A stretch of 64,000 nt of DNA, taken from NCBI GenBank assembly GCA_016235425.1, contig JACRLC010000091.1, positions 62,001 to 126,000 on the forward strand, written 5' to 3'. Positions 48,737 through 50,347 of this stretch are shown one piece after another. Below the pieces are notes generated by a model. It saw only the letters and a list, made by a program, of their open reading frames with translations, searched no databases and was not told the origin of the DNA. Position 1 is the stretch's first letter. The number at the start of each line of letters is the position of its first letter. The position numbers and the translations under genes were made by a program. This DNA is from Chloroflexota bacterium. Its GTDB lineage: Bacteria > Chloroflexota > Anaerolineae > Anaerolineales > Villigracilaceae.

Positions 48737-49156
48737 ATGAAAGCTGCCCTCCCCAAACCCGAACACCATTCCTACTTAGTCCATCGCAAGCAAGTGGCGA
48801 CTCAGGTCTTTCTGCCAATCATCGTGGCGGGACTGTTGATGATTGGCGCAATCGTTCTCGTCAGCGTCGCAGCCTTCCGCAATGGAGGTGACGCGGGCCG
48901 CTGGGCGGCGGTTTCAACCATCTGGATCATCCTCCCCGTCATGCTTGCAGGGATCGTTTTTCTGGCATTATTGATCGGCCTTATTTACCTGATCGCCCGC
49001 CTGCTTGGCATCCTCCCCGTCTACACAGGCATGGCACAGGATTACGTCTACAAGGCTCGCGGCTGCATCATCCGCGCCGCGGACATGGTCGTAAAACCGA
49101 TCATCGGTCTCGAAGTTTTCATCGAAAACGTCAGGGCATTTTTTGGAAGGATATAA
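48737..49156 (+). CDS. Small membrane protein with two membrane helices
   Basis: A 139-residue protein, not recognised. Two hydrophobic helices are visible (about 27-50, VFLPIIVAGLLMIGAIVLVS; and about 68-97, WIILPVMLAGIVFLALLIGL). An amphipathic C-terminal region follows (RAADMVVKPIIGLEVFIENV). TAAAAT (48724-48729) ends 7 bp before the ATG, suggesting a leaderless or near-leaderless message. The next gene starts 3 bp after the stop, so the two form a unit of small membrane proteins. Confidence 0.7.
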   Translation: MKAALPKPEHHSYLVHRKQVATQVFLPIIVAGLLMIGAIVLVSVAAFRNGGDAGRWAAVSTIWIILPVMLAGIVFLALLIGLIYLIARLLGILPVYTGMAQDYVYKARGCIIRAADMVVKPIIGLEVFIENVRAFFGRI

Positions 49157-49159
49157 CCC

Positions 49160-49357
49160 ATGCAAAACAAAGGACGAATTATTTTAGGCGGCGCGTTGCT
49201 CGGCGCGGTGACAGGTCTCATCGCCGCATTGCTCCTCACCCGCCGCGCGGAGAAAAACGAAACCTCAACCGCCCTCACCGCAGGCGAGGGACTCAAACTC
49301 GGCGTGCTGGTATTCGGATTATTGAGGGCGATTGCGAGTTTGGGGGATGAGAAGTGA
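49160..49357 (+). CDS. Small single-helix membrane protein
   Basis: A 65-residue protein with one N-terminal membrane helix (IILGGALLGAVTGLIAALLL) followed by RRAEKNETSTALTAGEGLKL and a second hydrophobic stretch (GVLVFGLLRAIASLG). The glycine-rich helix resembles the YtxH/gas-vesicle-like small membrane proteins, but this is weak. The 3' part (from 49231) is duplicated at 49950-50076, behind the DUF4160/DUF2442 pair. Its stop overlaps the DUF4160 start (GTGA). Confidence 0.65.
   Translation: MQNKGRIILGGALLGAVTGLIAALLLTRRAEKNETSTALTAGEGLKLGVLVFGLLRAIASLGDEK
49231..49314 (+). repeat. Direct repeat, left copy (84 bp perfect)
   Basis: Bases 49231-49314 are identical to 49950-50033. Beyond 49314 the two copies diverge at the DNA level but encode almost the same end (LLRAIASLGDEK versus LLRAIASLGDDK). 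Together they bracket the DUF4160/DUF2442 pair. Confidence 0.92.
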
Positions 49358-49623
49358 GTCCTGTCGTTTTCAGGGAAGGAGAATTTGTATTCTGGTTTCA
49401 TAGTTACGATGTCTTGCATGAAAACCGGGCCAGCATCCATGTTGGCAAGGGTTCGCAAAACGATGCAAGCGATGCTAAAATCTGGCTGGAGCCGCAGATC
49501 CAAATTGGGCGGGCTGGACGTACGCTAAGTCGCAGTGAATTGAATGTTGTGGTCGGAATTGTCGAAAGAAATCTTGATCGGTTGCAGGAGGCCTGGAATG
49601 TCCACAAAAGCAAAGCAAAGTGA
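49354..49623 (+). CDS. DUF4160 protein
   Basis: An 89-residue protein starting with GTG in the stop of the previous gene: MSPVVFREGEFVFWFHSYD, then HVGKGSQNDASDAKIWLEPQ (the K-x-WLEP element) and VVGIVERNLDRLQEAWNVH. These are features of DUF4160. Family knowledge: DUF4160 genes are often next to DUF2442 genes. A toxin-antitoxin or mobile-module role has been suspected but is not proven here. It overlaps the DUF2442 gene by 26 bp, so the two are co-translated. Confidence 0.8.
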   Translation: MSPVVFREGEFVFWFHSYDVLHENRASIHVGKGSQNDASDAKIWLEPQIQIGRAGRTLSRSELNVVVGIVERNLDRLQEAWNVHKSKAK

Positions 49624-49939
49624 GCAAACGGAAAAGTGGTACGACATTGCGTATCCTGCCTCAGCTTATACATTTCCGCGTGAGGCTCTCCTTCACCGCG
49701 TGCGCTTTGACAAGGATTATATGCACCTCGAGTTGACTGATGGGCGGATGCTCTCCGTTCCGCTCTCCTGGATCCCAACCTTGCACAACGCCGCCCCTGA
49801 AGAGCGTGAAAAATATGAAATCAGCCAGGACCGCAAGATGATCATCTGGAACCCGGACAAGTGCTCGATTAACGATGAAGTTCGGATTGAGGATTATCTT
49901 GTCAGTCGTCCAACTAATGAATCTGAAGAGCAGGAATGA
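49598..49939 (+). CDS. DUF2442 protein
   Basis: A 113-residue protein; ATG 49598 has GGAGG 5-9 nt upstream. The DUF2442 core is VRFDKDYMHLELTDGRMLSVPLSWIPTLHNA (about 36-66) followed by REKYEISQDRKMIIWNPD and EDYLVSRP. Family knowledge: small DNA-binding-like or partner proteins encoded beside DUF4160. It overlaps the DUF4160 gene. The stop (49937-49939) is followed 10 bp later by the second copy of the flanking gene end. Confidence 0.8.
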   Translation: MSTKAKQSEQTEKWYDIAYPASAYTFPREALLHRVRFDKDYMHLELTDGRMLSVPLSWIPTLHNAAPEEREKYEISQDRKMIIWNPDKCSINDEVRIEDYLVSRPTNESEEQE

Positions 49940-49947
49940 TCGCGGGT

Positions 49948-50076
49948 ATGCTCCTCACCCGCCGCGCGGAGAAAAACGAAACCTCAACCGCCCTCACCGC
50001 AGGCGAGGGACTCAAACTCGGCGTGCTGGTATTTGGGCTGTTGAGGGCGATTGCTTCACTGGGTGACGATAAATAA
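49948..50076 (+). pseudogene. Truncated second copy of the small membrane protein gene
   Basis: An ATG at 49948 opens 42 codons that match the last 39 residues of the 49160 gene (LLTRRAEKNETSTALTAGEG and onward), ending GDDK. The N-terminal membrane helix is missing. Bases 49950-50033 are identical to 49231-49314; the following bases differ mainly at synonymous positions. It is either the displaced end of the original gene or the remnant of a tandem paralogue. Confidence 0.75.
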
Positions 50077-50100
50077 ACAATGGCTCAAATCAAAGTTGAT

Positions 50101-50129
50101 GACCGAGGTTTCACGCCTCGGTCTTTTTT
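50101..50129 (+). terminator. Rho-independent terminator
   Basis: Stem gaccgagg (50101-50108) with cctcggtc (50116-50123) and six T. Confidence 0.88.
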
Positions 50130-50142
50130 GTAGGAGAAATTC

Positions 50143-50347
50143 ATGACCGCGAATCCAATCGTCTGGTGGGAACTGGCAGCTCACGACGCCGAAAAGACCG
50201 TCCAGTTTTTTCGCGATGTGTTCGATTGGCGGATTGACTTCGATGAAAAGCTCATTTGGCGGAGGCGTTGCAGTGCAGGCCCCAAACCCTGGTGTCTGGA
50301 TAAGCCATTATTACCATAATCTACGGAAGACCCGTCCAGGGACATGA
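50143..50347 (+). pseudogene. VOC/glyoxalase-family gene remnant with deletion and frameshift
   Basis: From an ATG at 50143 (aggag 10 bp upstream) the reading begins MTANPIVWWELAAHDAEKTV and continues QFFRDVFDWRIDFDEK, a typical VOC-family N-terminus. The frame then leaves the family and stops at 50319. In the +1 frame from 50249, SSFGGGVAVQAPNPGVWISH resumes the family pattern and stops at 50347. The middle and C-terminal parts are missing, so the gene is broken. The following 50348-50596 stretch shows no recognisable gene. Confidence 0.6.

Follow-up and report, generated by a model that had tools for sequence, protein, structure and literature searches.

Integrative elements that use tRNA genes or gene 3' ends restore those ends. 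The locus described here resembles them in its restored 3' end and in the displaced copy at the far end, and a true integrative element (in genome G108) shares a tRNA-Met site with toxin-antitoxin (TA) pairs of the kind considered below. However, our units are 0.6-0.7 kb long and carry no integrase, and no attachment core is constant among the insertions, a core being common to the tRNA-Met cases only. How chromosomal TA pairs move is an old open question because solitary pairs carry no transposase or integrase.

The closest described pattern is insertion with long target duplication, reported for restriction-modification genes of Helicobacter pylori (Nobusato et al. 2000, via PMC1643837 and PMC3031569). 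There, an addiction-type module likewise lacks a transposase and is bordered by a long target repeat of variable length. Our modules are instead DhiTA or PIN-toxin pairs, nearly every repeat comes from the 3' end of a gene, and its copies resemble diverged orthologues rather than fresh duplicates. In the displacement of Vibrio T6SS effector-immunity modules (Kirchberger et al. 2017, PMC5361080), a homologous anchor likewise lies upstream of the toxin module and the end of the previous gene comes to lie 3' of the incoming module. There a fixed secretion locus is the anchor and the effector is replaced, whereas here any host gene may serve and is kept complete. The nearest precedents also include homology-facilitated illegitimate recombination, which would have a homologous left side and a non-homologous joint on the right. 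A homologous tail joined to the TA genes occurs in G019, a possible counterpart of the left side, and the right joint lies at the DUF2442 stop codon. In an incomplete coverage of the literature, no earlier description turned up in which diverged 3' ends of a neighboring gene bracket a TA pair.

The pair itself is a member of a described family. DUF4160/DUF2442 modules were named DhiTA, and their activity has been shown in Dickeya dadantii and E. coli (PMC8198452). A module from Thermus thermophilus is reported to stabilize plasmids, and deletion tests suggest that its ORF1 is toxic and its ORF2 neutralizing (PMC12724237). The families and the toxin-first gene order described in these sources are shared by the pair studied here. 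The original prediction had called it the best candidate for an undescribed mobile small module; the pair itself is not new, being a member of an experimentally shown family. Mobility with gene tails goes unmentioned in the available text of both accounts (PMC8198452 and PMC12724237).

A DhiTA-type pair between two s65 3' ends

The window (the whole stretch of 64,000 nucleotides that was analyzed) lies on contig C89 of a 5.0-Mb genome in 109 contigs, and the closest relatives of this genome that bear a name are Anaerolineales/Chloroflexota MAGs. The locus, on the forward (+) strand from m139 onward, reads ftsZ, m139, s65, DUF4160, DUF2442, partial s65, terminator, and truncated VOC gene. The native left neighbor of s65 is m139 (48737-49156), a conserved small membrane-protein gene downstream of ftsZ, and the order m139-s65, often 3' of ftsZ, is present in the sister species G001 and in many genomes of the family. 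Copy 1 of s65 (49160-49357) is a complete gene of 65 aa with a weak, sub-threshold match to ATP-synt_I (Pfam E 0.0015). Its TGA stop codon (49355-49357) is overlapped, as GTGA, by the GTG start codon at 49354 of the DUF4160 gene (49354-49623, 89 aa; PF13711, 1.6e-6), a DhiT-type toxin gene. The DhiA-type antitoxin gene, DUF2442, follows at 49598-49939 (113 aa; PF10387, 1.1e-10). Both pass the Pfam cut-offs, and the two genes overlap by 26 nt with DUF4160 first. The roles of DUF4160 as toxin and DUF2442 as antitoxin are predicted by analogy with the Thermus and Dickeya relatives. The subfamily of the window is a divergent branch of DUF4160 (28.6 bits in Pfam), and no relative of it was found in IMG/VR contigs, so that viral carriage of the subfamily was rejected.

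Behind the pair lies copy 2 of s65 (49933-50076), a displaced 3' part of about 47 codons that was recognized by the repeat and by colinearity with an empty site. Its ORF (49936-50076, 46 aa) begins with an ATG that overlaps the DUF2442 stop codon as ATGA. An intrinsic terminator (GACCGAGG..CCTCGGTCTTTTTT) at 50101-50129 follows. It is normally found 3' of s65 in relatives, directly so in G027, and it stands 3' of the TA pair in G031. The last gene, a truncated VOC/glyoxalase-like gene (50143-50319; sub-threshold Pfam match to Ble-like_N), is the native right neighbor of s65: the order s65-terminator-VOC is found in G027, and VOC also lies to the right of s65 in G010 and G038. The VOC gene of the window is shortened to 58 aa. 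The genes beyond it encode a sensor kinase and a response regulator, whereas relatives have a YcaQ-like neighbor there, which points to another, later rearrangement in the window.

The direct repeat spans 49212-49353 and 49931-50072 with a spacing of 719 and 87% identity overall, and only the two TA genes lie between its copies, with no integrase in the element. It contains a perfect core, 49231-49314 and 49950-50033. The original prediction had placed the pair exactly between these two identical stretches and had described the last 39 codons of s65 as repeated. The identity (84/84) and the position of the pair were confirmed and the repeat is real; its extent has to be revised, as homology also runs about seven codons to the left of the core (GMIAGM in copy 2 against GLIAAL in s65). 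This short stretch scores in the top 5e-5 of all seven-codon windows against a profile of 132 family s65 proteins, and copy 2 therefore covers about 47 codons rather than 39. It also follows that the copies differ on both sides of the core, where 10/17 positions on the left and 27/40 in the tail are identical. For the reading that we favor below, a perfect core of 84 nt set in flanks of ~60-67% identity is a difficulty, as it calls for a further event, either gap repair or gene conversion. Outside the core, 10 synonymous and 4 non-synonymous codons differ, in agreement with the claim that the ends differ mostly at synonymous positions, and the mismatches fall on codon positions 1/2/3 as 4/2/11. 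Chance as the origin of the repeat was rejected, since s65 is otherwise single-copy and random segments of 500-650 bp show such repeats in 0.24% of cases.

The s65 site in related genomes

Among 152 genomes of the family, which are species representatives and include many MAGs, s65 is single-copy in 141. The proposed search for s65 without the insert yielded an empty site in G027, where s65, the terminator, and the VOC gene follow one another without the pair. Copy 2, the terminator, and VOC of the window are colinear with G027 over 273 nt (49979-50251, 80%), and the alignment of copy 1 to G027 ends at the s65 stop codon. The resident s65 has been split functionally, with a complete s65 next to the pair and a second tail behind the pair, and this second tail remains attached to the old terminator and VOC gene. 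The other origin that had been offered is a pair of tandem s65 paralogues whose middle was replaced by the TA genes, with gene conversion over 84 nt. This would explain why the sequence on either side of the core is s65-derived, coding-like, and diverged; however, s65 is single-copy across the family, an empty site exists, and the same arrangement recurs at dozens of unrelated genes, so that a tandem origin is very improbable.

The 3' end of s65 has taken in TA pairs repeatedly. DUF4160 pairs stand behind it in G004 and G007, PIN-type pairs in G017 and G023, and a decayed PIN-type pair in G021. In G019, a member of another genus, s65-DUF4160-DUF2442 has the identical junction and start/stop overlap and lacks copy 2. 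Between the window genome (G000) and G019, the DNA of the pair is 76-82% identical and that of m139 60%, and the higher identity of the pair points to its horizontal transfer. A second s65 3' end is convincing only in G000 and in G021 (56 nt, 91%) among an initial 95 loci, for most of which 5 kb of downstream sequence was covered, and none was found in the distant-genus loci added afterward. The surveyed loci contain no relative of the G108-type integrase within ~5 kb of s65. The idea that s65 is a dedicated att site of larger integrase-bearing elements was abandoned in view of the rare second ends and the lack of such an integrase nearby.

Copy 2 was taken as the resident tail by synteny with the VOC flank only; the tail sequences themselves agree poorly. 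The copy-1 tail (88% identical to G001, over tails of only ~40 nt) is closer to the sister species than expected if copy 1 is foreign, which counts against the explanation that we favor below.

Two further inserts were seen at s65. In G021 (locus L036, 2850-3440, minus strand), a gene of 188-189 aa and of unassigned family is inserted behind the displaced s65 tail. In G031 (L141, ~214-799 counted along the gene from the start of s65), a BrnT toxin gene (PF04365, 5e-28) and an unclassified partner of 107 aa sit between s65 and its terminator.

Flanking repeats at other TA loci and the origin of the copies

DUF4160/DUF2442 pairs were collected from the family genomes and from a scan for the subfamily, and the 300-nt left flank of each was compared with its right flank, a score of at least 20 being counted. 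Direct repeats flank 38 of 126 distinct DhiTA loci (~30%), mostly in relatives of the window bacterium; the number is 42 at a threshold of 16, 33 at 25, and 27 at 40. By comparison, none of 368 ordinary genes, drawn from conserved neighborhoods and not from horizontally acquired small non-TA genes, has flanking repeats (Fisher p = 2.4e-25). Mismatched flanks reach the threshold in 0.1%, and random 500-650-bp segments in 0.24% (0.3 loci expected). These three controls rule out plain chance. Pair detection had been relaxed to admit strongly overlapping pairs such as that of the window, and the automatic set omits L243 and L173, true cases seen by direct reading. About 70% of the loci have no repeat in the 300-nt test, and these may have lost it or may have been clean insertions. 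Within the window's own subfamily, the repeat is present in 4 of 32. Both figures weigh against the reading that we favor below. The original prediction had proposed searching for other flanked DUF4160/DUF2442 pairs and had named pairs never flanked elsewhere as the contrary outcome, which did not occur.

The repeats measure 36 to ~416 nt. Where the repeated part of a gene could be recognized, 16 cases involve the 3' end and three apparently the 5' end, two of these three being doubtful ORFs (L374 and L342, probably spurious). Further 3'-end cases are a ThiS-like gene, the window, tRNA-Met, and proC (L173). The repeated gene is usually quite different from s65. Pfam names a 5'-3' exonuclease, an alpha/beta hydrolase, the ThiS-like gene, an NAD epimerase, and a CbiA-like ATPase, while PDH E2, lipoyl dehydrogenase (lpd), proC, RsmG, and a xanthine-dehydrogenase-like subunit were read from sequence only. 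The last of these is the repeated gene twice, in two genomes, and so is one NAD-epimerase family. As in the window, 13 of the 17 coding cases have the full gene 5' of the pair and on the same strand. Repeats also flank several unrelated pairs with a PIN toxin, among them one behind a YdeI/OmdA-like gene (L328) and one in an intergenic stretch (L324). The two longer repeats at L181 and L250 seem to be of the dispersed kind and not gene ends. The repeated stretch is single-copy in relatives with an empty site, as found for s65 (G027), for tRNA-Met, and for lpd (G049, G047, G044, and G046); for the lipoyl dehydrogenase of G048, orthologues from sister species do not separate the native from the foreign tail. 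Overall, these loci show insertion at gene ends, a displaced tail, and diverse targets. Beside another DhiTA pair, L261 (G093:C47), lies a DUF5131-like gene, named by eye, in the opposite orientation; a second copy of its 3' 416 nt, at 84%, lies beyond the pair.

Across the 17 coding cases, the copies differ at codon positions 1/2/3 by 46/31/139 mismatches. The rate at position 3 relative to positions 1 and 2 is 3.6 (bootstrap 2.3-5.0), or 3.2 without the largest case, whereas a limit of ~2 is expected if a partial copy decayed neutrally after local duplication (P(ratio<=2) = 0.009). The copies thus resemble a pair of orthologues whose divergence took place under function, and the third-position bias implies that the tails diverged as working genes before they were joined, which bears out the claim that the copies were once separate sequences. 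Such a pattern fits the arrival of a gene tail together with the pair, where it met the resident tail, and speaks against a plain duplication of the target with later decay.

Insertion with target duplication, the differences between the copies having come later, possibly by imported alleles that replaced the intact gene, is nevertheless worth weighing. It agrees with repeats that range in length from 36 to 416 nt, with the variety of targets, and with the pattern known for another addiction module (PMC1643837 and PMC3031569), and some repeats are perfect or nearly so (97% at L335; 42/42 at the tRNA of G099, which could fit copying of one target sequence). However, the mainly third-position differences of the coding repeats imply separate origins rather than copies of one target sequence, and their bias is too high for neutral decay. 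Moreover, 5' ends would be expected as often as 3' ends, against 16 and 3 seen, and the mosaic of core and flanks in the window is a non-uniform divergence. We consider target duplication unlikely.

The reading that we favor, with a probability of roughly 0.55, is that 49354-49939 is a DhiTA-type pair that entered joined to an s65 3' end from another lineage; the shared tails would have recombined without help from a dedicated recombinase. A TA pair would thus move together with a host gene's 3' end, this end would recombine with its counterpart in the orthologous gene, and the resident tail would be pushed behind the pair. The event could be a single-crossover (Campbell-type) integration of a circle made of gene tail and TA genes, or homologous recombination on one side only, the joint on the other side, behind the TA genes, being illegitimate. 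The perfect 84-nt core might then be a crossover or conversion tract, and the repeats could let the unit loop out again. We infer the recombination step from its products only, and the pair would act as an addiction module, so that its loss would be costly and its retention favored. A tentative and somewhat doubtful extension is that many small TA pairs are self-perpetuating gene-tail cassettes: tail-tail recombination would free a circle of gene 3' end and TA genes, and an ordinary RecA-type crossover would bring this circle into the orthologue in a different cell. The pair would thereby spread from chromosome to chromosome without a recombinase gene, and each target would be left intact.

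The pattern suggests a route by which addiction genes spread without a mobility enzyme. The second gene tail behind the pair is a recurrent and datable scar that makes this route testable, as it identifies the target gene, gives a lead to the donor, and implies that a circle or crossover product should be measurable. The scar is also a cheap marker of recently acquired TA pairs and a warning for annotation, since short "orphan" gene ends beside TA pairs are insertion scars.

Insertions at a tRNA-Met gene

In G119, a pair of the window's subfamily lies 3' of a tRNA-Met(CAT) gene. The tRNA 3' half stands on both sides of this DhiTA pair, the last 43 nt of the tRNA being repeated (41/43) at the DUF2442 stop codon. 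The site is empty in six relatives (G139, G142, G137, G112, G103, and G110), in which the tRNA and the right flank overlap by exactly the stretch repeated in G119. Together with the 38 of 126 flanked loci, this case strongly supports the proposal of a cassette that enters the 3' end of a gene and brings a replacement end. At the same tRNA-Met, perfect 42-nt repeats enclose a VapBC pair (a PIN_3 toxin and a small partner) in G099, and 33-nt repeats enclose a 9.2-kb element that encodes a tyrosine integrase (PF00589, 8e-8) in G108.

These cases bear on the possibility that the pairs are att-bounded mini-elements moved in trans by tyrosine integrases, or remnants of larger elements, as the att repeat of the G108 element is the same tRNA-Met 3' half that brackets the pairs of G119 and G099. 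However, most targets are different protein genes without a shared core, the repeats, which reach 416 nt, are longer than is usual in att sites, and s65 has no G108-type integrase in its surveyed vicinity. Remnants, moreover, would not leave the pair so regularly abutting both repeats. We therefore regard integrase-dependent movement as quite improbable. The original prediction had noted that the unit would need help in trans. One integrase acting in trans is not supported as a general mechanism: with many unrelated targets and repeats from 36 to ~416 nt, homologous recombination through the tail fits better.

The G108 element (L311, G108:C210, 756-10078) also has Zot-like and replication-like genes, the integrase alone being confirmed by Pfam, and is possibly an inovirus-like prophage of Anaerolineae. 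Other small inserts at tRNA-Met (e.g. in G097, G104, G123, and G121) have no repeat. A hotspot of insertion (L303-L310) is the tRNA-Arg/Gly/Met cluster that precedes an inositol-monophosphatase-like gene, with a different small insert in each of G095, G097, G104, G101, G123, G131, G130, and G121.
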